64,000 bases of DNA from Achromobacter sp. UMC46 (lineage in GTDB: Bacteria > Pseudomonadota > Gammaproteobacteria > Burkholderiales > Burkholderiaceae_B), in the NCBI RefSeq assembly GCF_014170335.1, contig NZ_LZZS01000042.1:1-64000 (forward strand), in the 5' to 3' direction. Below are positions 24,666-62,857 of this stretch, piece after piece; positions within the stretch are counted from its first letter, which is position 1; the number at the start of each line of letters is the position of its first letter. The translations under genes and the position numbers were made by a program. The notes under the pieces were generated by a model, which was given only the letters and a program-made list of their open reading frames with translations, did no database searches and was not told the DNA's origin.

Positions 24666-25091
24666 ATGTCTATCGAAAAAGTCCTCTACCGCGCCAATGC
24701 CACCGCAACCGGCGGCCGTGAAGGCCGTGGCGTCAGTGATGACGGCAATCTGGACGTCAAGCTGACGACGCCGCGCGAGCTGGGCGGCGCAGGCGCGGCC
24801 GGCACCAATCCGGAACAACTGTTCGCAGTGGGCTATTCGGCCTGCTTCCTGGGCGCCATGAAGTTCGTCGGCGGCCGCGACAAGATTGCGATCCCGGCGG
24901 ACGTGTCGGTGAACGGGATTGTTGGCATCGGACCGATCCCGACGGGATTCGGAATCGAAGTCGAATTGAAGATTGCGTTGCCGGGAATGGAGCGTGAGCT
25001 GGCTGAGAAGCTGGTGGCGGCGGCGCATATCGTTTGCCCTTACTCGAATGCTACGCGCGGGAATATTGATGTGACGTTGACGATTGTTTGA
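24666..25091 (+). CDS. ohr: Organic hydroperoxide resistance peroxiredoxin Ohr
   Basis: Thiol peroxidase that reduces organic and fatty-acid hydroperoxides. The 141-aa protein has both catalytic cysteines: YSACFLGAM (about residue 60) and [17 protein letters not shown] (about residue 125), and the family start [22 protein letters not shown] at 24666 follows AAAAGGAAAC. Controlled by the adjacent ohrR. A structured repeat element begins 16 bp after its stop. Confidence 0.95.
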
Positions 25092-25585
25092 TCGTTGCTT
25101 GGTTTGGGGCGGGTGGCGGATCTTCGCAGGTCGCCCGCCGGCGGGGTCGGCCTGACGGCGCGCGCCCACGATTGCGGTCCGGAGCCTTCGCTCCGGACTT
25201 CCCCGTTGTCATCCTCGTACGCCTTCGGCTCCCTTCGGATTCCCTCGGGCGCATCGAGGTTGCGTGCCGTCAGGCCGACCCTGCCGACGGGCTGCCGCCG
25301 TCTTGGTTCGTTGCCCCGCTAGACCGCGGTTCAATGACGAGACTTGCGTTGCCCGCCGACTTGCGGCCGCCCGGGCGGCGCGCAATCGGCATACGCGCCG
25401 TTGATGCGTCGTGGCGGTGGCCGCTTGCGCGCGGCAAATCCGTCACGAGACCGATGTCCGTCATCGCGCGCACCCCATCATGCGGGCATGATTCGATGGG
25501 GGAGGATCATCACGACGCAAGACGCCGCGTAAGCCCCACGTGCCGGGCGGCCTAAGAACACTGACACCCGCACAAAAATCACCCT
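25092..25585. other. Intergenic region between convergent ohr and livF
   Basis: 494 bp without a credible gene, almost all occupied by copy A of the structured repeat element (25108-25537). Open frames in this stretch exist in several phases because of high GC; homology to copy B persists across frame changes, so I read it as non-coding. Confidence 0.75.
25108..25537 (+). repeat. Structured intergenic repeat element, copy A
   Basis: Homologous to copy B at 48936-49464. Helices visible: 25108-25113/25134-25139; closing helix 25144-25159/25266-25281 (16 Watson-Crick pairs, extendable both ways); hairpin 25177-25185/25190-25198 (9 bp, 4-nt loop); short hairpin 25221-25223/25227-25229; 25243-25247/25255-25259; 25286-25290/25298-25302; and 25361-25365/25381-25385 enclosing a GCCGCC/GGCGGC stem. 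Several arms differ from copy B with pairing kept. The end is marked by a 21-bp block (25517-25537) shared with copy B. It starts right after ohr. Function unknown: structured RNA, 3' processing or nucleoid-related DNA element are possible. Confidence 0.8.
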
Positions 25586-26308
25586 CTAATGCCCACCCCC
25601 GAGATAAGCCGCAACCACCGCCGGATCACCACGTAGTTTCTCCGCGCTGCCATGCACCGAAATCCGCCCGTTCTCCAGCACGTACCCGTAATCCGCCACA
25701 TTCAGGGCGGCGGCTGCGAACTGTTCCACCAGCAGCATCGTCACGCCTTCGTCCTTCAACCGCGCAATGATCCGGAACACTTCCTCCACCAGGATCGGGG
25801 CGAGCCCCATCGATGGTTCGTCCAGCAGCACCAGTTCGGGGTTCAGCATCACGGCGCGGGCCATGGCCAGCATTTGCTGCTCGCCGCCGGACAGGGTGCC
25901 GGCCAACTGCTCGCGGCGTTCCTTCAGTCGCGGGAACAGGTCCATGGCTCGGCCCAGGTCGGCCTGCACGTCGCCCTTGGGGCGGCTGCCGGTCAGGCGC
26001 GGGAAGGCGCCCAGCAGCAGGTTGTCGGTCACCGACAGGGTCGGGAACACGCGGCGGCCTTCCGGCGAATGGGCCAGGCCCAGCCGCGCGATGCGGTGGG
26101 ATTCCAGGCCGTCGATGCGCTTGCCGCCTAACGTGACCTCGCCCGCGGTGGGGCGGATCATGCCGGATAGCGCGCGCATCGTGGTGGTCTTGCCGGCGCC
26201 GTTGGAGCCGATCAGCGTCACTACCTTCGCCTTCGGCACCTCCATGCTGATGCCGTGCAGCACCTTGACCTTGCCGTAACCCGCTTCCAGATTCTTGATC
26301 GATAGCAT
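25586..26308 (-). CDS. livF: ABC transporter ATP-binding protein, LivF type (second system)
   Basis: ATPase of the second Liv-type importer, 240 aa. Walker [12 protein letters not shown], signature [14 protein letters not shown], Walker [14 protein letters not shown], and [14 protein letters not shown] near the end, all standard for LivF. It begins 19 bp after the stop of the LivM-LivG fusion and is the last gene of the livKHMGF order read on the minus strand. Confidence 0.94.
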
Positions 26309-48888: not shown

Positions 48889-49619
48889 TGCGGGAGTGAG
48901 GTTCGTCGGGGGAGGCTTGCGGGGCTTCTTCGGTGTCGCGGGTGGTGCTTCGTGGGTCGCCCGTCGGGGTGGGCGGCATGGGCACTCGCGCCCACGATTG
49001 CGGTCCGGCGCGCAGGCGCCGGACTTCCCCTTCGTCATCTTCGTCCAGGCCTACGGCCTTCCCTTCAGATTCCCTCGGGCGCATCGAGGTTGCTCGCGCC
49101 CATGCCGCCCACCCCGACGGGCTCACGCCGTCTTGGCTCGGCGCGTTGCTGGGCCTGTCAATCATGTCGAGATTTGCGGGGCCCGCCGATTGCGGCCGCG
49201 CGGGCGGCCACAATCGGCATACGCGTGGTGCGTCGTCAGGGGGGTGATCGCTTGCGCGCTTGCGTGGAGGGATTGCTGATGGGCCCGCAATCAAGTGGGG
49301 GGGTAGAGATGGGCGGCGCGCGGCAGGGAGCCTGTTGCGTATGCAGACCCTCTCGCGCACGCCGCCCATCCGGCACAGGGGTTCAAGTGGCGATTAGCGG
49401 CGGCCCGTTTTCTTGCCTATACGCGTGGCGGCAGCACGTCGATGCAAGACGCCGCGTAAGCCCCCAAAGGCCGCCCGCGCGGCCGGCCGGGGGCGGGCAC
49501 TACAAGCTATTTCTCTTCTCGATGCCGTATGCCAGAACCCTAAGCATGCAGCTCGCCCCGGCAGGCCACCGCCGCGACGGGCGTCTCAAGAACCAGCACC
49601 CGTCACCAAACACACACCA
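48889..49619. other. Intergenic region between convergent rodA and Ldh-family gene
   Basis: 731 bp with no credible gene. Most of it (48936-49464) is copy B of the structured repeat; the remaining 155 bp next to the Ldh-family stop shows nothing I can name. Open frames are long in several phases but none has a ribosome-binding site or known motif. Confidence 0.75.
48936..49464 (+). repeat. Structured intergenic repeat element, copy B
   Basis: Homologue of 25108-25537. Helices: closing helix 48961-48983/49098-49120 (23 pairs, no mismatch, although its last five pairs compete with the GACGG/CCGTC hairpin); 49003-49011/49016-49024 (9 bp, 4-nt loop); 49037-49041/49045-49049; 49073-49077/49085-49089; 49116-49120/49128-49132; 49188-49192/49211-49215 enclosing 49194-49198/49205-49209. 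It has about 100 bp more than copy A before the shared 21-bp end block (49444-49464), including GGGCGGCG and CGCCGCCC arms around 49311-49370 that could form another long hairpin. It lies after rodA in the same orientation relative to the gene as copy A. Confidence 0.8.
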
Positions 49620-50672
49620 TCAACCCGGCAACGCCTCCGGCACACCCAGGTCGGACGCCAGCTTCTTCAACCCATCCCAGATCCGGCTATCGAACTCCAC
49701 CGAATCTGCGTTCACGGCGCGGTTGCGGGCTTCGTATTCGCCCGGGTATTGCACCGCCTCGACGCCCGGCTGCGGCTTGCATGCGTGCAGGTAGTCGATG
49801 AACGCGCCGACTTCCATCGTGCGCCAGTCGGTGTTGAAGTCCACTTGCGGATCCAGCAGTAGCGCGAACATGTTGTTGGTCGCCACGCCGATGCGGGGAT
49901 GCTCCGGCTGGATCGTGCCGCCGCCCGACAAGACGCCGGCCAGCAGTTCAGCCACCAATCCCAGCGCGTAGCCCTTGTGGCCGCCGAAGGGCAGCAGGGC
50001 GCCGGGCGGGTCGGCGAACAGCGCGCCGGGGTCCGTCGTGGGGTTGCCGTCGGCGTCGATCAGGGATCCGGGGGGCGCCTGTTCGCCCTTGGCCGCCAGC
50101 ACGCGCGCTTTGTTCACCGCGATCGAACTGGTGGCCATGTCCACGATGAATGGGGGGCGGCCGCCCGGCAGCGGGCCGGCGAAGCACAGCGGGTTGGTGG
50201 TCAGGCACGCCTGGGCGCCGCCGAACGGCGCCACGGTGGGCGCGCGGTTGATCACGTTGGTGAAGGCCAGCAGGATCAGGCCCTTGGCCGCCACCATTTC
50301 CCCGAAGTGGCCCATGCGGCCCAGGTGATGGCTGTGGCGCAGGGTCACGATGCACTGACCGTGTTCCTGGGTGCGCTCGATGGCCTTTTCGATGACGACT
50401 TTGCCCACGTACTGGCCCAGGCCGTGGTGGCCGTCATAGGCCAGCATGGCGCCGCGGTCGTTGACCAGTTCGGGCCGGCCGTCGGCCTGCGCCAGGCCTT
50501 CGGACAGCACGCGCCGGTAGTTCGTCAGGATCGACAGGCCGTGGCTGGTGTAGCCGACCCGGTCCGACTCAACCAGGTGTTCGGCCACGTCGCGGGCGAT
50601 GTCTTCGGGTACGCCTTGCGCCATCAGCACGCGGCGGCCGTATTCATTGGCTTGGGCAATGGAGAGTTTCAT
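49620..50672 (-). CDS. Ldh/MDH2-family NAD(P)-dependent oxidoreductase
   Basis: Member of the malate/L-lactate dehydrogenase family that is unrelated to classic MDH (YbiC/ComC/AllD group); it interconverts 2-hydroxy and 2-oxo acids. The 350-aa protein shows RVGYTSHGLSILTNYRR, TLRHSHHLGRMGHF with the catalytic His, FGGAQACLTTNPLCFAGP and LPFGGHKGYALGLVAELLAG. It begins 12 bp downstream of a dicarboxylate-type transporter, so the pair may take up and oxidise a hydroxy acid such as a malate or tartrate analogue. Confidence 0.9.
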   Translation of the reverse strand: MKLSIAQANEYGRRVLMAQGVPEDIARDVAEHLVESDRVGYTSHGLSILTNYRRVLSEGLAQADGRPELVNDRGAMLAYDGHHGLGQYVGKVVIEKAIERTQEHGQCIVTLRHSHHLGRMGHFGEMVAAKGLILLAFTNVINRAPTVAPFGGAQACLTTNPLCFAGPLPGGRPPFIVDMATSSIAVNKARVLAAKGEQAPPGSLIDADGNPTTDPGALFADPPGALLPFGGHKGYALGLVAELLAGVLSGGGTIQPEHPRIGVATNNMFALLLDPQVDFNTDWRTMEVGAFIDYLHACKPQPGVEAVQYPGEYEARNRAVNADSVEFDSRIWDGLKKLASDLGVPEALPG

Positions 50673-50684
50673 GATGCGTTCTCC

Positions 50685-52178
50685 TTAGAGCCAGCCGAGC
50701 CAGCGCCAGTAGGTCGCGCCCATCACCAGCATCAGCAGGTAGCCCACGATGGTGACGATGATGCCGACTTTGGCGAACTGCTTGGCGTTGAAGGTTTCCG
50801 TGCCCAGGCACACCATGTTCTGCGGCGCGTTGATCGGCAGGATGAAGCCGTAGCTGACGACGAAGCCCAGCAGCATGGTCATGCCCAGGCGGCTGAAATC
50901 GCCCGGCAGCGTGGCCAGCACCGAGATCAGGATGGGCAGCATGGCCGAGGTCAGCGCGGTGGCGCTGGCAAAACCCAGGTGGATGACGATCAGGAACGCG
51001 GCAAGGACGGCGAAGATCGCCAGCGGTCCCAGGTGATCCAGCCCGGTATGCGCCACGACCTGGTTGCCCAGCCATTGGCCGGCTTGCGTCGTCAGCAGGG
51101 CGGTACCCAGGCTGATGCCCACGCCGAACACGATCACCGTGCCCCATGGGATGCGCGATTGCACGTCTTTCCACGTCATCACGCCAAAGCGCGGCAGCAT
51201 CAGCAGGACCAGGCCAAAGTAGGTGGTCGACGTGGTGTCGAACTTGTGCAGCTTGCCTTCGGTCGACCAGAACAGCAGCAGCATGATCGACACCGCCATC
51301 AGGCGTTTTTGCGCGCTGGTCATGGGGCCCAGTTCAAGCAGCGACTTTTCGACGGCTTCCTTGCCTCCGGCGATGCTGTCGCTTTCCGGCGGCAGCAGTT
51401 TCAGCACGACGAAGATCAGCACAGCCGACATGATCAGCGACCAGGGGGCGCCGGCGATCAGCCAGTCCGACCACGCCACGCGTTCGCCCAGCATCTTTTC
51501 CATAAAGCCGACCGTCAGCAAGTTTTGCGCGGCGGCGGTCTGGATGCCGACGTTCCAGATGCTGGTGGCTTGCGCCACGATGATCATGATGCCGGCGGCG
51601 ATGTTCGAACGCTTGTCCACACCGAAGGCCGCGATGACGCCCATCATGATGGGCACCACGGCCGCACTGCGCGCCGTGGCGCTAGGCACGACCAGGCTCA
51701 GCACGATCGTCACGGCGATACATCCGATCAGGATGCGGCGCGTGCTGGTGCCGACCTTGGACAGGGTGACCAGCGCGATGCGCCGGTCCAGCCCGGTGAA
51801 GGTCATGGCGGCGGCAATGAACAAGGCGCCGGTGACAAGCGCCAGCGCCGAGTTCGAGAAGCCGGTAAGGGCCATGCTGATGGCGGCCGACGTGCCGTAC
51901 AGCACGTTCGGGTCTTTGATTGTCGGAGCCGTGCCCAACAGGAAAGCCATCAGCGTCGTGATCATGATCGCGCTGGCTTCGTAAGACACGGCTTCGGTAA
52001 TCCAGACCACCACGGCAAATGCCAGGATCGCCAGCATGCGGTGGCCCGCGACCGGCAGGTCGGCGGGCAGGGGCATCATCAGCACCCCGATCATCACCAG
52101 GATGCCGGCGACGAGTCCGATTGGGATTTTTGCTTTCTTTGGGGCTTGCGAGGCAGGGACAGCGGCTGGCGCGGTCAT
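50685..52178 (-). CDS. DASS/SLC13-family anion transporter
   Basis: Sodium- or proton-coupled uptake of di- or tricarboxylates or sulfate. The 497-aa protein has about 12 hydrophobic segments and the hairpin motifs VVPSATARSAAVVPIM and YGFILPINAPQNMV that carry the SNT-like anion sites (here SAT and NAP). I start at the second Met (52178) because GGAG is 6 nt before it. Transcribed with the Ldh-family enzyme, which suggests an organic acid as substrate. Confidence 0.9.
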   Translation of the reverse strand: MTAPAAVPASQAPKKAKIPIGLVAGILVMIGVLMMPLPADLPVAGHRMLAILAFAVVVWITEAVSYEASAIMITTLMAFLLGTAPTIKDPNVLYGTSAAISMALTGFSNSALALVTGALFIAAAMTFTGLDRRIALVTLSKVGTSTRRILIGCIAVTIVLSLVVPSATARSAAVVPIMMGVIAAFGVDKRSNIAAGIMIIVAQATSIWNVGIQTAAAQNLLTVGFMEKMLGERVAWSDWLIAGAPWSLIMSAVLIFVVLKLLPPESDSIAGGKEAVEKSLLELGPMTSAQKRLMAVSIMLLLFWSTEGKLHKFDTTSTTYFGLVLLMLPRFGVMTWKDVQSRIPWGTVIVFGVGISLGTALLTTQAGQWLGNQVVAHTGLDHLGPLAIFAVLAAFLIVIHLGFASATALTSAMLPILISVLATLPGDFSRLGMTMLLGFVVSYGFILPINAPQNMVCLGTETFNAKQFAKVGIIVTIVGYLLMLVMGATYWRWLGWL

Positions 52179-52522
52179 ATCCATCTCCGGTTGAGGTCAA
52201 ACTTCCGACACATTCCCCGCGAGCTCGGGTTTGTTCAATTCGATGTGTCGGTGCTACAGGATGATCGTGACGGCATTGAGGAAAACCCGTATTGATGTGG
52301 GTCAAACCGAAGAGGTTTTGCGCTTGTAGAAACCCACCTCGGGCATTATGCTCGTCGGCCCTCGTTGGTCGCAAGCGTTGGAATGTTGCATAAATGCCCA
52401 CCACTTGGGCCGGAGGTCGATGTGCCCCGCCCGGTGAGATTCGGGTAATTCGATCGTGTTATGGCGCAAATTGGTCGCGAAAGAATCACAAATGGACCAC
52501 GTCTGGGCCGCCAGCGGGGGGT
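52179..52522. other. Intergenic region between slmA and the anion transporter
   Basis: 344 bp with no convincing ORF. It contains a 9-bp inverted repeat (52205-52251) in the transporter leader and the slmA 3' end. No clear terminator after slmA. Confidence 0.55.
52205..52251 (-). promoter_or_regulatory. Inverted repeat CCGACACAT ... ATGTGTCGG upstream of the transporter
   Basis: Perfect 9-bp arms 52205-52213 and 52243-52251, 29 bp apart, beginning 27 bp before the transporter start. It could be a leader hairpin or paired operator half-sites for a substrate-responsive regulator not encoded here. Confidence 0.5.
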
Positions 52523-53098
52523 TCAACCCAGCGCCAGCCGCAGTTGCTCGTCCAGATGCAGCGTGGGCGTCACGCGCCAGCCGCTCTGCGCATAGCGCAG
52601 CCAGCGGCCCAGCACCAGATGCGTCAGCAGGCTGGCGTGCGCGGCCACATTGGCGTCCGGCGGCAGGCCGCCGTCCGTGATGGCGATGCGCAGCGATTGC
52701 TTCAGCGAAGTTTCGATGCGGTCGTTGATGTGGTTGATGCGCTCTTGCAGTCGGTTGTCTTCCGTGACCAGCGCATCGCCGGTCAGCACCCGCGTCATGC
52801 CCTTGTTGCGTTCCGAGAAGGTCAGCAGCATGGAGACGGTCTTGTGCGCTTGCGGCACGCCGTAGGGTTCGGCGGTGGCAATCTGGTTCACCAGCGTGAA
52901 GATGCTGGTTTCGATGAATTCGATCAACCCTTCGAACATTTGCGCCTTGCTGGCGAAGTGCCGGTAGAGCGCGGCTTCCGACACCTCAAGGCGCGCGGCC
53001 AGCGCAGCCGTAGTGATGCGGGCCGCATGCGGCTGCTCCAGCATTTCGGCCAGAGTCTGCAGAATCTGGGTCTTGCGCTCGCCGGGTTTGCTCGCCAT
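52523..53098 (-). CDS. slmA: Nucleoid occlusion factor SlmA (TetR family)
   Basis: TetR-fold protein that binds DNA and blocks FtsZ over the chromosome. The 191-aa protein has KTQILQTLAEMLEQPHAARITTAALAARLEVSEAALYRHFASKAQMFEGLIEF, which is the SlmA type of helix-turn-helix, and an FtsZ-contacting C-terminal domain of standard length. Its neighbours (HAD nucleotidase and argB) are the usual ones in beta-proteobacteria. Confidence 0.92.
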   Translation of the reverse strand: MASKPGERKTQILQTLAEMLEQPHAARITTAALAARLEVSEAALYRHFASKAQMFEGLIEFIETSIFTLVNQIATAEPYGVPQAHKTVSMLLTFSERNKGMTRVLTGDALVTEDNRLQERINHINDRIETSLKQSLRIAITDGGLPPDANVAAHASLLTHLVLGRWLRYAQSGWRVTPTLHLDEQLRLALG

Positions 53099-53152
53099 GG
53101 AAGGTACTGCTCTCGCGCAGGCTTGACGGTGAATGGGGGGAGGAGCGCGCCG

Positions 53153-53899
53153 CTATCCCCGCAGGGGACGCCGGCGTAACAACAAATCACTGACGGAGTT
53201 TACCCGCAAGTCGACGTAGGCCGGACGATGCGAGCGGCCGCGGGAAAAAGGCGTGCCGGGGTGATAGACATGCACCGTGCGGACCCCGGCCCGGCGTGCG
53301 CCGCGCAGGTTGGCCAGGGTGTCTTCCACCAGGACCGCGCGGTGGGCGGGCACGCCTTCCCGCGCCAGCACATAGCGCAGCAGGGCGGGCGACGGCTTAG
53401 GCCGGAATTCACCATGCAACCGCATGTGCTCGATGGCCCACAGGCTGTCGAACTGGCGCAGGATGCCCAGCCGGGCCAGCACCGCCCGGGCGTATTGCAG
53501 CGGCGCGTTGGTCAGCAGCACCTTGCGGCCCGGCAACTGCCGCAGCTTGTAGGCCAGCGCCTTTTCGGCGCGCACCAGCGGGTTGACGTCGAAGTCGTGG
53601 CTGCGGTGCAGGAAGTCGTGCGGGTTCACGCCGTGGTGGCGCACCATGCCGATCATCGTGGCGCCGTAGCGCTTCCAATACCGGCGGCGCACGTCGTTGG
53701 CCGTGTCGATGTCCACGTTCAAGGCCTCGGCCACGGCCATCGTCATGCCGTGGTCGATCTTGGGGAAGATGGCGTGCGAGGTGTCGTGGAGCGTATTGTC
53801 CAGATCGAACAACCACAGGCGTTCGGGAACGCCCGTGGCCATGCGGCGCGAGCGGCGCACGCGCACCGCCGGTCGCAACAATTGTCGGCGCGCTTGCAT
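53153..53899 (-). CDS. HAD-family pyrimidine 5'-nucleotidase
   Basis: Phosphatase of the HAD superfamily related to YjjG/SDT1, which dephosphorylate pyrimidine nucleotides. Motif I is LWLFDLDNTLHDTSHAIFP, motif II VLLTNAP, motif III/IV FRPKPSPALLR and VLVEDTLANLRGARRAGVRTVHV. The start is uncertain: GTG 53911, ATG 53899 or ATG 53842 are all in frame and none has a good ribosome-binding site; I list 53899 (248 aa). Placed between slmA and argB. Confidence 0.88.
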   Translation of the reverse strand: MQARRQLLRPAVRVRRSRRMATGVPERLWLFDLDNTLHDTSHAIFPKIDHGMTMAVAEALNVDIDTANDVRRRYWKRYGATMIGMVRHHGVNPHDFLHRSHDFDVNPLVRAEKALAYKLRQLPGRKVLLTNAPLQYARAVLARLGILRQFDSLWAIEHMRLHGEFRPKPSPALLRYVLAREGVPAHRAVLVEDTLANLRGARRAGVRTVHVYHPGTPFSRGRSHRPAYVDLRVNSVSDLLLRRRPLRG

Positions 53900-53939
53900 C
53901 AAAAACGCCACCGGAGAGACATGGCAAAGCCGTCCCGAT

Positions 53940-54015
53940 CCGGGCCGCGCGGATCCGGCTCCGCCGGTCCGCAGCGGCGCCCCCTGGGGGGAAGCGCGCA
54001 GCGCTGCGGGGGGGG
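53940..54015 (-). repeat. GC-rich 3' repeat, copy 2 (after argB)
   Basis: Near-identical to 34127-34204, with a few substitutions and two small length changes in the C/G runs. It lies 2 bp past the argB stop codon and contains the same three hairpins. On the minus strand it is followed by CGGGAC, not by a T-run, so if it ends transcription it is not a standard intrinsic terminator. Confidence 0.75.
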
Positions 54016-54017
54016 CA

Positions 54018-55037
<1,020 letters not shown>

Positions 55038-55088
55038 CTAAAACCTATGTCCATATGCCCGACAAATAACCGGCATTCAGGTAAATTG

Positions 55089-55165
55089 GGGGCGTTTTCG
55101 AGAGCGCGGCGCCCCGCAAAAGGGGGTGAATCCGCATCCGGGCGGACATGGGCCCCCATTTTTAT
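55089..55165 (+). promoter_or_regulatory. Attenuator-like leader of metQ
   Basis: Four complementary segments: 1 GGGGCG (55089-55094), 2 CGCCCC (55110-55115), 3 GGGGG (55122-55126), 4 CCCCC (55153-55157). 1:2 and 3:4 can form together, with an inner TCCGC/GCGGA stem in 3:4, and 3:4 is followed by ATTTTTAT (55158-55165) like an intrinsic terminator. 2:3 is the mutually exclusive alternative. The metQ ribosome-binding site AAGAGG comes right after. It does not match the SAM riboswitch classes I know. Confidence 0.6.
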
Positions 55166-55183
55166 CCCTATAAGAGGCAAAAC

Positions 55184-55972
55184 ATGCGTTTGAACTTCGT
55201 CCGCTCTGCCCTCGTGGCATCGGCCTTCCTGGTGGCGGCCAATGCCGCTCATGCTGAAAAAGTGGTGGTGGGCGCGACCCAGGTGCCGCATGCCGAGATC
55301 CTGGAAGTGGTGAAACCGCAGTTGGCCAAGCAAGGCGTCGAGCTCGACATCAAGGTGTTCAGCGATTATGTACAGCCCAACCTGCAACTGGCAGACAAGC
55401 AGCTGGACGCCAATTTCTTCCAGCACAAGCCCTATCTGGATTCCTTCAACCGGGACCGCAAGGCCACGCTGGTGCCGGTGGCGCTGGTGCACGTCGAACC
55501 TTTCGGCGGCTACTCCAAGAAGATCAAGAGCCTGTCCGAATTGAAGGACGGCGCCACGGTCGCCATCCCGAACGACCCGTCCAACGGCGGTCGCGCGCTG
55601 GTGCTGCTGCAAAAGCAGGGCGTGATCAAGCTGAAGGATCCGTCCAACATCCTCGCGACCGCTGCCGACGTGGTCGAAAATCCCAAGAAGCTGAAATTCC
55701 GCGAACTCGAAGCCGCGATGCTGCCGCGTTCACTAGACGACGTGGACCTGGCGCTGATCAACACCAATTACGCGCTGGAAGCCGGCCTGGTGCCGACGAA
55801 AGACGCGCTGTTCATCGAAGGCGCCGATTCGCCCTACGCGAACGTCCTGGTCACCCGCTCCGACAACAAGGACGCGCCGGGCATCAAGAAGCTGGTCGAA
55901 GCGCTGCACTCGCCCGCCGTGAAGACGTTCATCCAGGAAAAGTACAAAGGCGCCGTGGTGCCCGCGTTCTGA
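55184..55972 (+). CDS. metQ: Methionine-binding protein MetQ (NlpA family)
   Basis: Periplasmic binding protein for D/L-methionine import. The 262-aa protein has a signal peptide (SALVASAFLVAANAAHA) without a lipobox Cys, unlike most MetQ lipoproteins, then VVVGATQVPHAEILE, DANFFQHKPYLDSFN, IPNDPSNGGRALVLLQ and LALINTNYALEAGL, all NlpA hallmarks. No metN or metI is adjacent, so it must work with subunits encoded elsewhere. It ends at a strong bidirectional terminator. The leader has attenuator-like pairing. Confidence 0.92.
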   Translation: MRLNFVRSALVASAFLVAANAAHAEKVVVGATQVPHAEILEVVKPQLAKQGVELDIKVFSDYVQPNLQLADKQLDANFFQHKPYLDSFNRDRKATLVPVALVHVEPFGGYSKKIKSLSELKDGATVAIPNDPSNGGRALVLLQKQGVIKLKDPSNILATAADVVENPKKLKFRELEAAMLPRSLDDVDLALINTNYALEAGLVPTKDALFIEGADSPYANVLVTRSDNKDAPGIKKLVEALHSPAVKTFIQEKYKGAVVPAF

Positions 55973-55994
55973 ATCCGGCCGGTCTCCGGCCAAG

Positions 55995-56029
55995 CATGAA
56001 AAAACCGCCCATCGGGCGGTTTTTTCATG
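55995..56029. terminator. Bidirectional Rho-independent terminator
   Basis: A perfect 16-bp inverted repeat with a 3-nt loop: CATG-A6-CCGCCC (55995-56010) and GGGCGG-T6-CATG (56014-56029). It lies between convergent metQ and tlpA and has a T-run for both directions. Confidence 0.95.
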
Positions 56030-56046
56030 GGGCGGCGGCGGTGCGT

Positions 56047-56541
56047 CTAGCCTGCCGCCAGCGCCTTTTCCACGGTGGCGTGGAATTCGGCCACATCGTA
56101 TTCGCCCAGATAGCGCTTGATGATGTGTCCCTGCTTGTCGATCAGGAAGGCCGTGGGCGTCAGGCGGATGTCGCCGAAGGCGCGGGCAATGTCGCCCTTG
56201 GTGTCCAGCGCCACGGGGAAGGGCAGCTTGCGTTGCTCGGCGAAGTTCAGCACGAAGTTGGGCGGGTCGTAGTCCATGGCGACCGCCACGGCCTCGTAGC
56301 CCTTGCCCGCGTACTGTTTATAGGCGGCGATGGTTTCCGGCATCTGCTTCACACAGGTCACGCAGCTGGTCGCCCAGAACTTGACCAGCACGACCTTGCC
56401 GCGCAGGTCCTGCATCGAGAAGGACTTGCCTTCCAGCGTGGTGAAGGTGACGTCGGGCGCGGTCTGGGCAGGGCGCCAGACGAACCATGCGCCGATGCCG
56501 ACCGCGACCAGCACGGCCAGGGCTACGATGGCTTTTTTCAT
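56047..56541 (-). CDS. TlpA/ResA-like membrane-anchored thioredoxin
   Basis: Thiol-disulfide oxidoreductase tethered to the inner membrane with its domain in the periplasm. The 164-aa protein has an N-terminal anchor (IVALAVLVAVGIGAWFVW), the active site FWATSCVTCVKQMP (CVTC instead of the common CPxC) and the cis-Pro region LTPTAFLID. Its ATG overlaps the dolP-like stop as ATGA. Reductant for outer-envelope or cytochrome maturation is likely; the CVTC centre is atypical. Confidence 0.9.
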   Translation of the reverse strand: MKKAIVALAVLVAVGIGAWFVWRPAQTAPDVTFTTLEGKSFSMQDLRGKVVLVKFWATSCVTCVKQMPETIAAYKQYAGKGYEAVAVAMDYDPPNFVLNFAEQRKLPFPVALDTKGDIARAFGDIRLTPTAFLIDKQGHIIKRYLGEYDVAEFHATVEKALAAG

Positions 56542-57278
56542 TTGATGGGCATGGCCTCTACGCCGTTGCTCGTGCCGGCTGCGTTGTTGCTGGGTGCCGC
56601 GCCGGCGCCGCTTTCAATGGGCGCCTTGGTTTCCGTGGATTGGTCCCGGGTGCTGCTGTTGGACAGCCGGATTGCTTCTTCCCGGCTGATGGTCTCGAAC
56701 AGTTTAACCACCTTGGCGACCCCGCCGACGTCGGCGGTGGCGTTGGCGGCGTAATCGCCCTCGGCCTGGGTGACCTTGCCCATCAGGTAGACGACGCTGT
56801 GGTCCGTCGTGAGCGCGATGGTGCCGGACGGCACGTACTTGGTGTTGATCAGCGCCGTCTTCACCTTGGAGGTCAGCCAGGTGTCGTTCGAGCGGGTGCC
56901 GAAGGAGGCGATTGGGCCGACGTTCAACTGGTTGACGACCTGTTTGACGTTCTCGATGCCCTGCGCGATGGTGGTGGCCTGGGCCTTGGCTTCTTCGGTG
57001 GGCACGTCGCCCGTCAGCAGCAGGTGGCCGCCGTAAGCCATCGCGTTGACCCGGGCGGTGTCGCCCAATTTCTGCGAGATCTGGCTTTGCGCCTTGAAGG
57101 CCATGTTCTGGTCTTCAAGCTGGATACCGGATGTGCGGCGGTCCGTGACCACGACTGCCGTGGTGGCGGCGGCGCCGCCTACGATCAGGGGCGCGCAGGC
57201 CGTCAGCGAAAGCGCCGCGGTGGACATCGCGGCCGCGAGCATCAGGGGGCGGACGGCGGTTCTGACGTCAGAAATCAT
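56538..57278 (-). CDS. dolP: BON-domain outer-membrane lipoprotein (DolP/YraP-like)
   Basis: Lipoprotein with two BON domains, like DolP, which supports outer-membrane integrity. The 246-aa protein has a signal with lipobox (AALSLTAC), then BON 1 (FKAQSQISQKLGDTARVNAMAYGGHLLLTGDVPTEE-type) and BON 2 (TSKVKTALINTKYVPSGTIALTTDHSVVYLMGKV). The C-terminal 40 residues are Ser/Thr/Ala-rich and extra. Overlaps diaA upstream and tlpA downstream by 4 nt each. Confidence 0.88.
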   Translation of the reverse strand: MISDVRTAVRPLMLAAAMSTAALSLTACAPLIVGGAAATTAVVVTDRRTSGIQLEDQNMAFKAQSQISQKLGDTARVNAMAYGGHLLLTGDVPTEEAKAQATTIAQGIENVKQVVNQLNVGPIASFGTRSNDTWLTSKVKTALINTKYVPSGTIALTTDHSVVYLMGKVTQAEGDYAANATADVGGVAKVVKLFETISREEAIRLSNSSTRDQSTETKAPIESGAGAAPSNNAAGTSNGVEAMPIK

Positions 57279-57868
57279 TCGGTGTCTCCAAGCAGAAGAG
57301 CGTCGATGCCATCGCACAGCGCGTGCAGCAGCAGAATATGGACTTCCTGGACCCGCATCGTGCGGTCGCTGGGAACACATAGATGGACGTCCATCGGCGT
57401 AATGAGTTCCCCCATGACGCCGCCGCCCTTGCCGGTCAGGGCAAGAACGTGCATTTCGCGCGCGCTGGCGGCTTCCATGGCGCGGACCACGTTGGGGGAA
57501 TTGCCGCTGGTGGAGATCGCCACCAGGACGTCGCCGGCCTGGCCGAAGGCGTTGACCTGGCGCTCGTAGATTTCATCGAAGCCGTAGTCGTTGCCGACGG
57601 CCGTGAGGATGGCGGTATCCGTATTGAGCGCGATGCCCGCCAGCGGCAGGCGTTCGCGTTCGAAGCGGCCCACCAGTTCGGCGATGAAATGCTGCGCGTC
57701 AGCGGCGGATCCGCCGTTGCCGCAAGCCAGAATCTTGCCGTTGTTCGCCAGGGCGCCGAATAGCACGTCCACCGCCACTGCCAGCGGTTCGGCCAGGACG
57801 TTCATACTTTGTTCGCACGCAGCCATGGCGTCGCGAAAGTGCGACGTCATACGAGAGGTCATATCCAT
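57275..57868 (-). CDS. diaA: SIS-domain protein, DiaA / phosphoheptose isomerase family
   Basis: A 197-aa SIS protein. GmhA isomerises sedoheptulose 7-phosphate for LPS heptose; DiaA binds DnaA. The sequence has ILACGNGGSAADAQHFIAELVGRFERERLPLAGIAL, ISTSGNSPNVVRA and CVPSDRTMRVQEVHILLLHALC. Gene order (yraN-this-dolP, divergent from rsmI) is the E. coli diaA locus, which favours DiaA; the two are hard to separate by sequence. Start at 57868; ATG 57862 is possible. Confidence 0.85.
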   Translation of the reverse strand: MDMTSRMTSHFRDAMAACEQSMNVLAEPLAVAVDVLFGALANNGKILACGNGGSAADAQHFIAELVGRFERERLPLAGIALNTDTAILTAVGNDYGFDEIYERQVNAFGQAGDVLVAISTSGNSPNVVRAMEAASAREMHVLALTGKGGGVMGELITPMDVHLCVPSDRTMRVQEVHILLLHALCDGIDALLLGDTE

Positions 57869-57983
57869 GGCCGCGATTATCTCACGGGGCGGTCATGCTG
57901 TTCTGTCGATCCGTAACGATGCTGCGGCAGGTCGTTACGGCGGCGTCCCGCCGGGGCCGGACCGGGGCGGACGCATGCGCAAA

Positions 57984-58466
57984 TCAAGCCAGCAGGAACG
58001 CGCCGCGCAGCCATTGCGGCTGGCCGTCATCGAAGACCACGGCGTCGAAGCGGGCCGCGGGCGGCGTGCCGTGCCAGTGCCGCCGGGCCAGTTCCGGCAG
58101 CCATTGCGCCGCGGCGCGGGCCAGCCGGGCCTGCTTGTCGCGGCCGATGCTGGCCGCGGCGCCGCCGTATCGGGTGCGGCCGCGCGCCCGGACTTCCACG
58201 AAAACCAGCGTGTCGCCATCGCGCATGGCCAGGTCGATCTCGCCCGCCCGCGTCCACAGGTTGCGCGCCAGCAGCACGAGGCCCTGGGCCAGCAGCAGGC
58301 GCAGCGCGGCGTCTTCGTGGAAATCGCCGCGGCGTTGCATGGGCGAACGGCGCACGGGCGTGTCGTCCGGTGACGCGCTCGGCCGGGCGCGGCGGCGGCG
58401 CTTGTCCGCGCGGCGCCGGGCCACCAGCGCCAGTTCACAGGCCAGGCGCAGGGTGTCGTCCGTCAT
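57984..58466 (-). CDS. yraN: YraN family protein (UPF0102, endonuclease-like)
   Basis: Small conserved protein with a restriction-endonuclease-like fold; a role in recombination or DNA repair is suspected in the family but not proven. The 160-aa protein shows [42 protein letters not shown], holding the E-x-D...E-V-K-like core (VEVR here). About 45 N-terminal residues, rich in Arg ([14 protein letters not shown]), come before the usual YraN start and are unusual. First gene of the yraN-diaA-dolP-tlpA unit. Confidence 0.85.
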
Positions 58467-58531
58467 GGGGGCTCCGAAAGGGCGGGCATTGGCGGCTACA
58501 CTGACATGGTTTTCCGTGTCAGTAGGCTGCA

Positions 58532-59467
58532 ATGAATCAAAATGTCTCACCCCCGCCTGCCGGCGATGCCTGGAGCCGCGTTTCCGAACGCGTGGCCGGG
58601 CAGCATTGGCCCGCGTCGACCTTGTACGTCGTGGCCACGCCGATCGGCAACCTGGGCGACTTGGGGCTACGGGCCTGGCATGCGCTGCAACGCGCCGATG
58701 TGATCGCCGCCGAAGACACGCGGGCCAGCCGCACGTTGCTGGACGCCTGGGGCGTCAGCACGCCGCTCATGGCAGCCCACCGCCACAACGAGGCCGCCGC
58801 CGCCCAAGCCATCTGTGAACGCCTGGCGCAAGGCCAGCGCGTGGCGCTGGTGTCGGACGCGGGCGCGCCCGCCGTCAGCGACCCGGGCGCCCGTGTGGTG
58901 CGCGCGGTGCGCGAAGCGGGGTTCACCGTCGTGCCCGTGCCCGGTCCCAGCGCCGTCATCACGGCCTTGATGGGCAGCGGCGTCACGACCGACGAAAACC
59001 CGGCCTACGCGTTCGCCGGCTTCCCGCCGCCCAAGGCCGTGGCCCGCCAGCGCTGGCTGCGGTCGTGGTGCGCGTTGCCCGCGCCGGTCGTCATGTTCGA
59101 ATCGCCGCATCGGTTGGCCGCCACCCTGGCCGACCTGCTCGAAGTCTGCGGCCCCGACCGCCAACTGACCGTGGCGCGCGAACTCACCAAGCGCTTTGAA
59201 GAGATCGCCACCTTCACGCTGGGCGAGTCCGCAGCCTGGCTGGCGGCCGACTCGCACCGCGAACAGGGCGAATTCGTGCTGATCGCTCACGCGCAAGCTG
59301 GACAAGACGTCGACGAGGACGCCGACCCGCGCACGGACGTGCTGCTGGACGCGTTGTTGGAATCGATGTCGGTGCGCGACGCCGCCCGCGTGGCCGCCAA
59401 GGTCACGGGCGTGGCGCGCGACGTGTTGTACAACCGGGCGCTGGCCCGCAAGAAGTCGTCGGAGTAA
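58532..59467 (+). CDS. rsmI: 16S rRNA 2'-O-methyltransferase RsmI
   Basis: Methylates the ribose of C1402 in 16S rRNA with SAM. The 311-aa tetrapyrrole-methylase-fold protein shows [65 protein letters not shown] and MFESPHRL. Divergent from yraN (65 bp), which is the same arrangement as in E. coli. Confidence 0.95.
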
Positions 59468-59470
59468 GGC

Positions 59471-60055
59471 ATGGTGTATTCAACGGTCGTGTCGAACAAG
59501 CCCGCCGACCCCCTCGAACCGATCACCTATCGCGACATGGCCACGCCGCTGGGCCAGATGCGGCTCGTCGCCAGCCCCAAGGGCCTGCGCGGCGCCTGGT
59601 TCACCGACCAGGAACTGCTGCCGTCGGCCGATGGCTGGACGCAGACCGAAACCGACCCCATCCTGGAGCAGGCGCGGCGCGAACTGGAAGAATGGTTCGC
59701 GGGCCAGCGCCAGGGGTTCGACGTGCCGCTCGACCCCGTCGGCACGACGTTCCAGCATAAGGTCTGGCACGCGCTCTGCGCGCTGGATTTCGGCAAGCTC
59801 GCCAGCTATGGCGATCTGGCGCGCACCGTGGGACGCCCGAAAGGGGCGCAGGCGGTTGGCGGCGCGGTGGGCCGCAATCCGATCATCATCATCATCCCTT
59901 GCCACCGTGTGATCGGCGCCGATACGTCGCTGACGGGATTCGGCGGGGGCTTGCCGCGCAAGCAGGCGCTGCTGGCGCACGAAGGCAACCGGTACGTCAG
60001 CCGCAACCCGCGCGCGCGCCGCGTCTGCGACGGTCAGGCCGAATTGCCCTGGTAA
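59471..60055 (+). CDS. ogt: Methylated-DNA--protein-cysteine methyltransferase
   Basis: Repairs O6-methylguanine by moving the methyl to its own Cys. The 194-aa protein has the active site IIIPCHRVIGADTSLTGFGGGLPRKQALLAHEG and the DNA-reading SYGDLARTVGRPKGAQAVGGAVGRNP. It begins 3 bp after the rsmI stop, with GGAG inside the rsmI end, so it is co-transcribed. N-terminal half is a weak, non-metal-binding Ogt-type domain. Confidence 0.94.
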   Translation: MVYSTVVSNKPADPLEPITYRDMATPLGQMRLVASPKGLRGAWFTDQELLPSADGWTQTETDPILEQARRELEEWFAGQRQGFDVPLDPVGTTFQHKVWHALCALDFGKLASYGDLARTVGRPKGAQAVGGAVGRNPIIIIIPCHRVIGADTSLTGFGGGLPRKQALLAHEGNRYVSRNPRARRVCDGQAELPW

Positions 60056-60073
60056 GCCGTTGGCCCCCTGCGC

Positions 60074-61033
60074 TTATTGCGTGGCGATGCTCGGCAGGAT
60101 GCCGATGCGGTCCGATACCCGCTGCACGGCGTTCAAGGCGCTTTGCCGGTCGGGGTAGGGCCCGATCCTGACCCGGTACAGGTTGTTGGATTGCTCTACC
60201 TGAGCAGGCGGCGCGCCTGCCGCACCCAACTGCGAATTGATGCGGGCGACCAGCGATTGCGCGTTGGCCGGCTGGCTGAAGGCGCCCACTTGCAGATACA
60301 CGCTGCCTGCGCCGGCCACCGGGGCCTGGCGTACCGGGGCCGAGCCGGGCGCGGGGCCCGGCAGCGGTTCAGCGGTCAGCGCGACGGGCAGGGCGGCCAC
60401 CGGCGCCAGAACGGGCATCGAGCCCGTGGCCGATGCGGGTTCCGGCGCCGCGGCCGGCGCGCCTTGCGAGGCCAGGCGGCGGATCTCGGCTTGCGGAATG
60501 CTCTCTACGACCACCTGCCCGCTGCCCGGCCCGATGATGCCCAGCTTGTACGCCGCGACGTACGACAGGTCCATGATCCGGTCGCTATGGAACGGCCCGC
60601 GGTCGTTCACGCGCACGACGATCGTCTTGCCGTTGACCAGGCTCGTGACGCGCGCATAGCTCGGGATCGGCAGCGTCGTGTGGGCGGCCGTCATGGCGTA
60701 CATGTCGTAGGACTCGCCGATGGACGTGGAGTTGCCGTGGAATTTCTTGCCATACCAGGACGCCGTGCCGCGCTGCTTGTACGGCTGGCCGCTGGTGTCT
60801 GGCACATAGCGCTGGCCGAACACCACGTAGGGCCGGTTGGCGCCGCTGGCGTAGGGTTCGATGCGTGGCACCGCGTCGGGCACCTGGTCCAGGTTGGACG
60901 GCGGGTTGGCGTCCGGGCCGTCGTCCTTGTAATAGCCGCCGCCCTTTTTACGTCCACCGCTGGAAGAGCATCCCGCCACGGCAATGGCCAGGAACAGCAT
61001 CAGGATCAGGTGGAGCGGGCGGGACAGGGTCAT
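60074..61033 (-). CDS. rlpA: Septal lytic transglycosylase-like lipoprotein RlpA
   Basis: Outer-membrane lipoprotein of the septal ring; RlpA homologues cut glycan strands lacking stem peptides. The 319-aa protein has a lipobox (LAIAVAGC), the DPBB domain at about 90-180 (RGTASWYGKKFHGNSTSIGE ... VVRVNDRGPFHSDRIMDLS, with the catalytic Asp-His region), a Pro/Ala linker and a C-terminal SPOR domain (VYLQVGAFSQPANAQSLVARI) that binds denuded septal glycan. Its ATG overlaps the rapZ stop as ATGA. Confidence 0.92.
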   Translation of the reverse strand: MTLSRPLHLILMLFLAIAVAGCSSSGGRKKGGGYYKDDGPDANPPSNLDQVPDAVPRIEPYASGANRPYVVFGQRYVPDTSGQPYKQRGTASWYGKKFHGNSTSIGESYDMYAMTAAHTTLPIPSYARVTSLVNGKTIVVRVNDRGPFHSDRIMDLSYVAAYKLGIIGPGSGQVVVESIPQAEIRRLASQGAPAAAPEPASATGSMPVLAPVAALPVALTAEPLPGPAPGSAPVRQAPVAGAGSVYLQVGAFSQPANAQSLVARINSQLGAAGAPPAQVEQSNNLYRVRIGPYPDRQSALNAVQRVSDRIGILPSIATQ

Positions 61034-61908
61034 GCGGATTCGGCGGGCAATTGGTTGCGGTGGCGCACCAGCAGGGGATCGTGGTCGGCGAAGCGCAGCG
61101 CCAATTGTTCGACGACATAGACCGAGCGGTGCTGGCCGCCCGTGCAGCCGATCGCCACGGTCAGGTAGTTGCGGGTGTCTTGCGTGTACTGCGGCAGCCA
61201 GCGGTTCAGGAAGCCGGCGATGTCGTCGATCATCTGCCCGACCTGCTCGTACCCGGCCAGCCATGCGGCCACGGGTTCGTCGCGGCCGGTCAGCGGACGC
61301 AGGTTGCGGTCGTAATGCGGGTTGGGCAGGCAGCGCACATCGAACACCAGGTCGGCGTCGCCAGGCACGCCGCGCTTGTAGGCGAAGGATTCGAACGTCA
61401 GCACCAGCGGCGCGCGGTCCGCCTGGATCAGGTCGCGGACCCAGGCGCGCAGCTGGCCGGGCGTCAGGTCAGACGTGTCGATCACATGCTCTTGCTCGCG
61501 CAGCGGCGCCAGCAGTTCGCGCTCCAGCGCGATGCAGTCGGTGAGCGACGGCGGGGTGCCGCCGCGCTGCAGGCGGTCGGTCAGCGGATGGCGGCGGCGG
61601 GATTCGGAGTAGCGTTGCACCAGCGTCGAGGTGTTGGCGTCCAGGAAGACCACGCGCAGGCTGGTGCCCATGGCGCGCAGCGCCGTGACCACGTCGGGCA
61701 GTTCCGCCAGTTCGCCCGGGGACCGCACGTCGATGGCCACCGCGACGCGCTCCAGGCCGTCATCCCGCGCGTTGGCGATGAATTCGGTCAGGAACCGGAC
61801 GGGCAGGTTGTCGACGCAGGTGTAGCTGGCATCCTCGAGCATGCGCAGGGCGACCGATTTGCCTGAGCCAGAGATACCGGTGACAAGGACGACTTTCAAC
61901 ATGGACAT
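61030..61908 (-). CDS. rapZ: RNase adapter protein RapZ
   Basis: GTP/ATP-binding protein; in enterobacteria it directs RNase E to the GlmZ sRNA. The 292-aa protein has Walker A LVTGISGSGKSVAL, a Walker-B-like LRVVFLDAN, VVFDVRCLPNPHYD and the C-terminal IGCTGGQHRSV motif with Cys. Start at the first Met of MSMLKV. Usually next to ptsN or hprK; here it leads rlpA by a 4-nt overlap, so both are co-translated. Confidence 0.94.
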   Translation of the reverse strand: MSMLKVVLVTGISGSGKSVALRMLEDASYTCVDNLPVRFLTEFIANARDDGLERVAVAIDVRSPGELAELPDVVTALRAMGTSLRVVFLDANTSTLVQRYSESRRRHPLTDRLQRGGTPPSLTDCIALERELLAPLREQEHVIDTSDLTPGQLRAWVRDLIQADRAPLVLTFESFAYKRGVPGDADLVFDVRCLPNPHYDRNLRPLTGRDEPVAAWLAGYEQVGQMIDDIAGFLNRWLPQYTQDTRNYLTVAIGCTGGQHRSVYVVEQLALRFADHDPLLVRHRNQLPAESA

Positions 61909-62086
61909 GATTGTGGCACGCTTTTCCAGGACGATGCCGGCGGGATGGCATCTGATATGGCCGTAAACTGGGAATCTGCGCCTGTACCGTTTCGGTGGCC
62001 CTGGCGTAAGCTTGGGCCCGGATACTTGATCGATTCACTTACGCGCCCCGCCGTCATGCGTTTCGGGGGATTGGAATTCGACCTAG

Positions 62087-62845
62087 ATGTTAGCCCTCAT
62101 TTCGTTTTGTAGTGTTTCACTGCCGCGGTTTGGGGCGATTTTCCGCGTGATGGCGGCAGCCGTTGTTGCCTTTATGGCAACGTCCGCGCTGGCGCAGCCG
62201 GCGGCCCAGGACACCTTGCGCCCCGACACCATGGCGGCCCGGGTCGCGGCCTGTACGGCCTGTCATGGGGCGCAGGGCAAGGCCGGCTCTGACGGCTACT
62301 ACCCGCGCCTGGCGGGCAAGCCGCAGGAATACCTCTATCACCAACTGCTGAATTTCCGCGATGACCGTCGCCAGTACCGCCCCATGGCGCATCTGCTGGC
62401 CGGCTTGCCCGACGACTACCTGCGCGAGATGGCCGCGTATTTCTCCGGGCAGCATGTGCCGTATCTGCCGCCAGCGCGTGCGCCGGTATCGGGCGCCACG
62501 ATGGAAGCCGGGCGCGCGCTGGCCTTGCATGGCGACGCCGCCCGCGGCCTGCCCGCCTGTGCCGCCTGCCACGGCACCGCCCTTGGCGGCCTGATGCCGG
62601 CCATTCCCGGCCTGCTGGGTCTGCCCCGCGACTACATCGGATCGCAGATCGGCAGCTGGAAGAACGGGCTGCGTCACGCCGCTGCGCCGGACTGCATGGC
62701 GGACATCGCCGACAAGCTCACCCCCGCCGACATCGGCGCCCTGGCGGCGTGGTTGTCGTCGCAGCCGGTCGTCGAGCCCTATGCGCCCGAGGCCGCCGGA
62801 TCGCTGCGCCTGCCCGCCGAGTGCGGCAGCCAGGCGCAACGCTGA
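62087..62845 (+). CDS. Diheme cytochrome c4-type protein, secreted
   Basis: Periplasmic electron carrier with two c-type hemes. The 252-aa protein has a signal peptide (VMAAAVVAFMATSALAQ), two CXXCH sites (CTACHGAQG and CAACHGTALGG) and the repeated YLYHQLLNFRDDRRQYRPM / YIGSQIGSWKNGLRH pattern typical of c4 halves with the axial Met. An ATG further in (62150) would also keep the signal peptide. It is followed 12 bp later by a triheme cytochrome, so the two may form one electron chain. Confidence 0.9.
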   Translation: MLALISFCSVSLPRFGAIFRVMAAAVVAFMATSALAQPAAQDTLRPDTMAARVAACTACHGAQGKAGSDGYYPRLAGKPQEYLYHQLLNFRDDRRQYRPMAHLLAGLPDDYLREMAAYFSGQHVPYLPPARAPVSGATMEAGRALALHGDAARGLPACAACHGTALGGLMPAIPGLLGLPRDYIGSQIGSWKNGLRHAAAPDCMADIADKLTPADIGALAAWLSSQPVVEPYAPEAAGSLRLPAECGSQAQR

Positions 62846-62857
62846 CAGGGGGCCCCG

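Follow-up and report, generated by a model that had tools for sequence, protein, structure and literature searches.

An intergenic repeat family of Achromobacter with covarying three-way-junction domains at its ends and a mismatch polarity that favours the outward strand

MITEs such as Correia/NEMIS are short, non-coding sequences with terminal inverted repeats that are present in many intergenic copies. The intergenic repeat described here, 0.4–1 kb in size, is likewise short, non-coding and bounded by terminal inverted repeats, but differs from Correia/NEMIS by its long structured ends and a strand-specific constraint, and neither a target duplication nor a parent transposase was seen in the copies and searches detailed below. 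The T-shaped terminal hairpins of parvoviruses consist of a long stem closing two small hairpins, with the 3′ strand at the end; the ends of our element resemble them in shape only, with no replication protein, and no relation is claimed. The core of integron attC sites is GTTRRRY, a motif that was not seen by eye in the terminal repeats of the element.

REP, BIME and REPIN sequences are palindromes located between genes, of two types that form inverted pairs, and the type I and type II ends of the present element are inverted as well. According to the available part of PMC3733652, REPs measure 20–40 bp and many are GTAG- or CGTC-tagged, while untagged REP-like families are mentioned in Bordetella. 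With ~140-nt branched domains and a total of 0.4–1 kb, the element is far from a 20–40 bp unit, and the Y1 transposase of RAYT-associated REPs has no match in its own genome. The BRE of Bordetella, portrayed in the accessible part of PMC3110155 as ~90 bp long, often in tandem and also present in Comamonadaceae, resembles the element in being usually intergenic, GC-rich, found in the same bacterial family and variable between species, but differs in size and layout as far as that description goes. Stem-loop families have been catalogued in Bordetella genomes (PMC2267715, in the part available), which share with the element the repeated stem-loops and the bacterial family, again compared by description. 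Relatives of the element in Bordetella may already be included among the families of PMC2267715 or PMC3733652. A description of the element in Achromobacter was not found among open-licence papers, and the family is apparently undescribed. In agreement with the initial annotation, which knew no named family of this layout, none of 4227 Rfam families gave a covariance-model match at its gathering score; in permissive scans the best was MIR1858 (E 0.025, 34.6 bits versus a gathering score of 137).

The window, i.e. the whole analysed stretch of 64,000 nucleotides from Achromobacter sp. UMC46, harbors two copies, A and B. The initial annotation had given A the span 25108–25537, which is too short; the unit extends over 25120–25559 and its counterpart B over 48948–49593. 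The blocks said to be shared by the two regions are real: the 26 bases 25238–25263 equal 49068–49093 exactly, and the 21-base end block GCAAGACGCCGCGTAAGCCCC is present at 25518–25538 and 49444–49464. Both copies are flanked by converging genes: copy A by one of the OsmC family (ohr-like) and one for an ABC-transporter ATPase, copy B by a rodA/ftsW-type gene and an Ldh_2 gene. The parts of both copies are as follows.

25120–25559, no strand assigned: whole of copy A, with both ends kept and without the right-hand junction domain; ends set by comparison with complete copies
25120–25136, plus strand: left terminal inverted repeat of copy A, ATCTTCGCAGGTCGCCC
25132–25163, minus strand: outer arm of stem P1, copy A
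25170–25176, minus strand: one arm of the conserved inner helix of copy A, partner 25250–25255
25177–25198, minus strand: hairpin H2 of copy A (GTCCGGAGC, 4-nt loop, GCTCCGGAC)
25211–25240, minus strand: hairpin H3 of copy A, an ATCC/GGAT helix plus a GCC-TTC-GGC hairpin with the outward loop GAA
25262–25292, minus strand: inner arm of stem P1, copy A
25355–25390, no strand assigned: hairpin 2 of copy A (GCCGA...GCGGCC...TCGGC)
25518–25538, plus strand: conserved 21-base end block of copy A, GCAAGACGCCGCGTAAGCCCC
25545–25559, minus strand: right terminal inverted repeat of copy A, GGGCGGCCTAAGAAC
48948–49593, no strand assigned: whole of copy B, without the right-hand junction domain
48958–49122, minus strand: junction domain of copy B, with P1 arms 48958–48989 and 49092–49122, H2 49003–49024 and H3 49037–49070
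49185–49218, no strand assigned: hairpin 2 of copy B
49308–49370, no strand assigned: central hairpin of copy B (GATGGGCGGCGCGC ... GCGCACGCCGCCCATC)
49444–49494, no strand assigned: end block of copy B (49444–49464) and inverted hairpin 2′ (49460–49494)
49580–49593, minus strand: right terminal inverted repeat of copy B, GGCGTCTCAAGAAC

BLAST returned 71 pieces in the own genome, so that the likeness of A and B is not due to chance; merged by hand they amount to about 23 places, or 21 without a duplicated contig end. The further copies expected in related genomes were found in large numbers by BLAST as well as by covariance-model search. BLAST matches occur in 37 of 61 genomes, namely in 36 of the 37 genomes of the genus, with 3–34 matches each, and weakly in one of 24 others. 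A pattern scan of genomes yielded at least 115 stretches, all from Achromobacter among the matches listed. When 250 genomes of the family were searched with R1, a covariance model built on the junction domain, 50 matched: 28 belong to the genus and 22 to other genera, the latter among about 221 family genomes outside the genus; in an order-wide draw only 3 of 300 genomes matched, all three within the family. The same architectural plan is found in another genus, where copies in unrelated locations are as much as 96% alike. The plasmid and phage collections searched gave no element match. The sole genome of the genus without the element by BLAST, G003 (4.9 Mb), does not match R1 either; it would serve as a natural control in a search for the putative mobilising enzyme.

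In an alignment of 16 complete copies with A and B, the element consists of two halves that are inverted relative to each other and flank a variable centre. From the end inward, a half comprises a terminal repeat that is imperfect (CTTCGTAGGTCGCCC on the left, GTTCTTGAGACGCCC on the right when read inward, GTKCTWTTGGACGTCGAG in the genome G160), a domain of ~140 nt and hairpin 2, which is flanked by conserved letters. The domain is of type I at the left end and of type II at the right end, the two being inverted relative to each other. Its fold had been taken for a junction of at least three hairpins; instead, it is a three-way junction in which a ~30-bp stem, P1, averaging 32 bp per arm, and an inner helix (GAUGCG/CGCAAUC) close on two hairpins. 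A and B are shortened members: both ends are present, but the junction domain found on the right in complete copies is missing. Among 109 type I copies, the 31 with a right end recognised by pattern measure 437 to 3196 bp, 23 of them 545–1042 bp, the longest values being due in part to insertions or to right ends matched by chance. Measured between fixed anchors, the core has 83, 84, 86, 87, 88, 89, 97, 100, 101 or 102 nt; since such insertions and deletions break every frame, a conserved reading frame is unlikely, and protein coding was rejected.

Between A and B the closing helix changes with pairing kept (GGTCGGCCTGACGGC / GCCGTCAGGCCGACC in A, GGTGGGCGGCATGGGC / GCCCATGCCGCCCACC in B), and in the small hairpin A-T is swapped for C-G (GTCCGGAGC / GTCCGGCGC), both as initially observed. 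Across many copies the covariation is very strong. Alignment A2 holds 83 of 174 copies, those with stem scores below 22, cores above 90 nt or arms more than 86% alike having been left out. In these 83 diverse copies standard pairs occupy 94.7% of 3460 cells versus 81.7% after shuffling, and the covariation score is 0.300 compared to 0.074 ± 0.005 for shuffled alignments and 0.100 for the best slid control. All 13 counted pairs of P1 show changes on both sides, the 5′ arms of different copies being only 45% alike. The six pairs of the inner helix form in 83 of 83 copies, with C-G replacing G-C at one pair in one copy. The element thus possesses covarying helices like a structured non-coding RNA; such covariation, commonly taken as evidence for RNA, may here stem from DNA.

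The folding strand can be read from the mismatches, which were counted in stems scoring at least 20 (168 of 174). Watson-Crick pairs make up 96% of the 4032 interior P1 cells; in the inward reading, i.e. on the plus strand at the left end, the remaining cells are A.C/C.A 121, T.C/C.T 26, G.T/T.G 11, G.A/A.G 3 and C.C 2. In unique contexts A.C outnumbers G.T by 80 to 11 (p 4e-14). On the outward strand A.C becomes G.U (or G.T) and T.C becomes G.A, the better tolerated mismatches. The A.C:G.T bias is alike in type I (92:6) and type II (29:5) ends, and it is alike for neighbour genes pointing toward (83:7) or away from (31:3) the end, for which reason transcription-linked mutation was rejected as the cause of the polarity. 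As judged from this excess at ends of both types, selection acts on the outward strand at both ends, which is the minus strand for A and B. The outward strand is also predicted to be the more stable one in 83 of 83 copies with RNA parameters and in 82 of 83 with DNA parameters. For hairpin 2 and the central hairpin no outward polarity was seen, a weak comparison that depends on the chosen register and from which nothing is drawn.

These findings bear on the original proposal of a folded RNA or cruciform. The selection for folding stands, while a single folded plus-strand RNA of 400–500 nt is not supported, since the polarity points to the minus strand and the second, inverted domain has the same outward polarity; one transcript would not contain the favoured strands of both inverted domains, which makes such an RNA unlikely. 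The loops are suggestive only. Seen from the outward strand, H3 has a C(GNA)G loop in 168 of 174 copies, and H2 has GAAG or GAAC as its loop in 144 of 174, both of which we take to be extra-stable DNA loop motifs; read inward, the H3 loop is UNCG, the classic RNA tetraloop, so that the loop shape is ambiguous. The conserved unpaired stretches of the outward strand are purine-rich by eye.

Comparison of close copies shows how the arms change. Each event was counted once per context in stems of at least 26 bp. Achromobacter pairs that differ at 1–3 P1 positions comprise 25 double Watson-Crick changes (15 transversions), two further double changes that were not Watson-Crick on both sides being left out, versus 27 single changes; in G160 there are 8 double (7 transversions) versus 4 single changes. 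In pairs with exactly one differing position, 6 single, 1 double and 1 other change were found in Achromobacter, and 2 single and 3 double in G160; coordinated change is therefore not visible at the closest range in Achromobacter. Pairing in G160 is nearly perfect (1016 of 1020 stem cells Watson-Crick in 34 ends, though the stems differ), partly because of how the ends were chosen, a strict terminal motif and a good stem having been required. A stepwise route through G.U would favour transitions, so the transversion-rich doubles speak for DNA. Coordinated changes of both arms, mostly transversions, are hinting at hairpin-templated DNA copying.

With respect to gene orientation, assigned by our own simple gene caller, the elements avoid divergent promoters: of 118 gaps with an element 69 are convergent, 46 tandem and 3 divergent, compared to 120, 562 and 101 of the other gaps at the same loci, or to 21, 30 and 9 of the 60 other gaps of 300–2500 bp. 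The ohr-livF junction, where copy A resides, contains an element in 14 of 20 genomes (own, G012, G023, G014, G018, G016, G001, G004, G019, G006, G008, G002, G015, G020) and none in six (G007, G013, G011, G010, G017, G003). This pattern fits an old insertion followed by losses as well as repeated gain, and the element at this site looks old rather than freshly moved.

No target-site duplication was found for the element, none being visible by eye in the flanks of five G160 copies, and no clean empty site was obtained. Within the copies no transposase in cis was found, the transposase genes inside them belonging to inserted IS256 and IS110 elements. In the own genome there were no matches to RAYT-type Y1_Tnp (PF01797; controls positive 5 of 14), to the TnpB-type domain that would be expected of TnpB-type guide-RNA elements (PF07282; 6 of 14) or to the reverse transcriptase of retroelements such as group II introns and retrons (RVT_1, PF00078; 3 of 14). 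An autonomous parent was sought in G160, where five isolated terminal repeats, out of 51 sites found, led to solo ends or decayed copies. As target duplication, empty site and parent gene were not found, movement of the element is inferred.

The elements of the own genome contain IS256-type and IS110-type transposases. G105, which belongs to another genus, has 10 full copies of one IS256-type element, and all 10 sit within structured elements, at positions that vary; target duplications are readable for eight of them and are not the same. The own genome has six IS256-type matches, of which 5 are located in or beside an element, while the remaining one is a fragment that opens contig C1 and has no element within the neighbouring 4 kb. 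For the genus 37 IS256-type loci were listed and 30 fetched; an element is clearly adjacent at 8 of these, weakly so at 2, and not adjacent at 20; four of the 8 clear loci are from the own genome, and G009 contributes 0 of 5. Among the seven loci nearest to the IS256-type copy of the own genome (93–100%), four are clear, two weak and one is without element. The link is limited to some lineages and is not general. The IS256 gene was rejected as the element's own transposase, since it comes with terminal repeats and target duplications of its own and at differing places within the elements. Five insertion-sequence families have been described as targeting REP sequences; IS256 is one of them, with ISRm5 as a member (5/7; PMC1525189, in the part available), so that insertion into the elements is behaviour of a known kind.

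The reading we tentatively prefer, at a little short of an even chance from these sequence comparisons, is a non-autonomous MITE- or BIME-like intergenic element that would work through folded DNA ends. The family would then comprise non-autonomous intergenic DNA elements built of two inverted halves and bounded by imperfect terminal inverted repeats; at each end the outward strand, with its 3′ end at the element boundary, would have to fold into the long stem closing the three-way junction. The folded form would most likely be DNA, as single strand or cruciform, and would serve the spread of the element via a putative enzyme supplied in trans; the arms would stay complementary partly through copying of one on the other, and several IS256-family insertion sequences use the element as a landing site. 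A DNA cruciform fits somewhat better than RNA owing to the coordinated two-arm changes, the terminal inverted repeats and the insertion-sequence landing. With the double changes of close copies, the G160 pairing, the outward loops and the insertion-sequence preference, DNA is probably ahead of RNA, yet less than twice as probable. The covariation and the G.U tolerance speak for RNA, and a structured RNA is a possible though doubtful alternative: each end would encode an outward-transcribed three-way-junction RNA of ~150–300 nt that acts in trans or binds protein. The strong covariation, the G.U-like tolerance on one strand, the higher stability of the outward strand in 83 of 83 copies and its purine-rich conserved unpaired stretches are what such an RNA might show, but it would have to be reconciled with two divergent domains per element, with the transversion-rich double changes between close copies, and with pair 48/77 of alignment A2, which is U-A in 43, C-G in 29 and G-C in 11 of the 83 copies and never G.U; moreover, a consensus scan of copy A (24900–25800) revealed no sigma70-like promoter or intrinsic-terminator-like site.

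Quasipalindrome template switching, which in E. coli makes quasipalindromes more perfect inverted repeats in a strand-biased manner (PMC7202029, in the part available), might alone keep the arms of functionless palindromes complementary and would produce coordinated two-arm changes; we consider this improbable, since the 121:11 mismatch polarity tied to the element ends, the conserved unpaired core and loops and the conservation of the plan in another genus are left unexplained. Even less probable is a bidirectional transcription terminator or insulator between convergent genes, for although 69 of 118 element gaps are convergent and 3 divergent, against 21 and 9 of the 60 other 300–2500 bp gaps, 46 are tandem, 24900–25800 of the window is free of intrinsic-terminator-like sites, and the mismatch polarity disfavours the strand carried by the flanking mRNAs. 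Going beyond the preferred MITE- or BIME-like reading, the family would represent a new class of bacterial mobile elements that move or are copied by way of single-stranded DNA ends folded on themselves, with a T-shaped hairpin at each 3′ end, arms kept complementary by copying of one on the other, mobilisation by a putative chromosomal enzyme and recognition of the structure by some IS256-type transposases, which we regard as unlikely.

New here are the outward-strand mismatch polarity, its symmetry at both ends, the joint changes of the arms and the IS256-type landing in G105. The elements form a large genus-wide repeat family without Rfam match and provide a clean natural case in which mismatch polarity tells which strand folds. 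Insertion sequences would moreover find in them a structured place to land, and they would be a cause of broken Achromobacter assemblies.

Several minor observations concern parts of the element. In loci L035, L036, L042, L074, L094 and L174 the terminal motif is often found in tandem just beyond the left end with a period of about 18–21 bp by eye, as though the boundary had been duplicated. Two loci of G105 (L277 and L278) have an element centre made of ~165-bp tandem units, each with a hairpin-2-like palindrome, likewise by eye. In G160, solo terminal repeats of ~20 bp, TCGACGTCCAATAGAAC, lie between convergent genes with the rest of the element absent (L356, 5389; L360, 5048). A distinct palindromic repeat, GTGTCTGACACCC, occurs in like intergenic regions (L207, L215, L042), in L207 with the hairpin element absent. 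In the own genome, finally, the end of contig C42 (49k–153k; window 48955–64000) is apparently repeated in reverse at C3:1–104062; two compared stretches (6480 and 7201 bases) are 100% identical, and the paths diverge inside copy B. This duplication probably arose at the repeat as an artefact of assembly or of mixed strains and may be the source of part of the 4.33% contamination of that genome.
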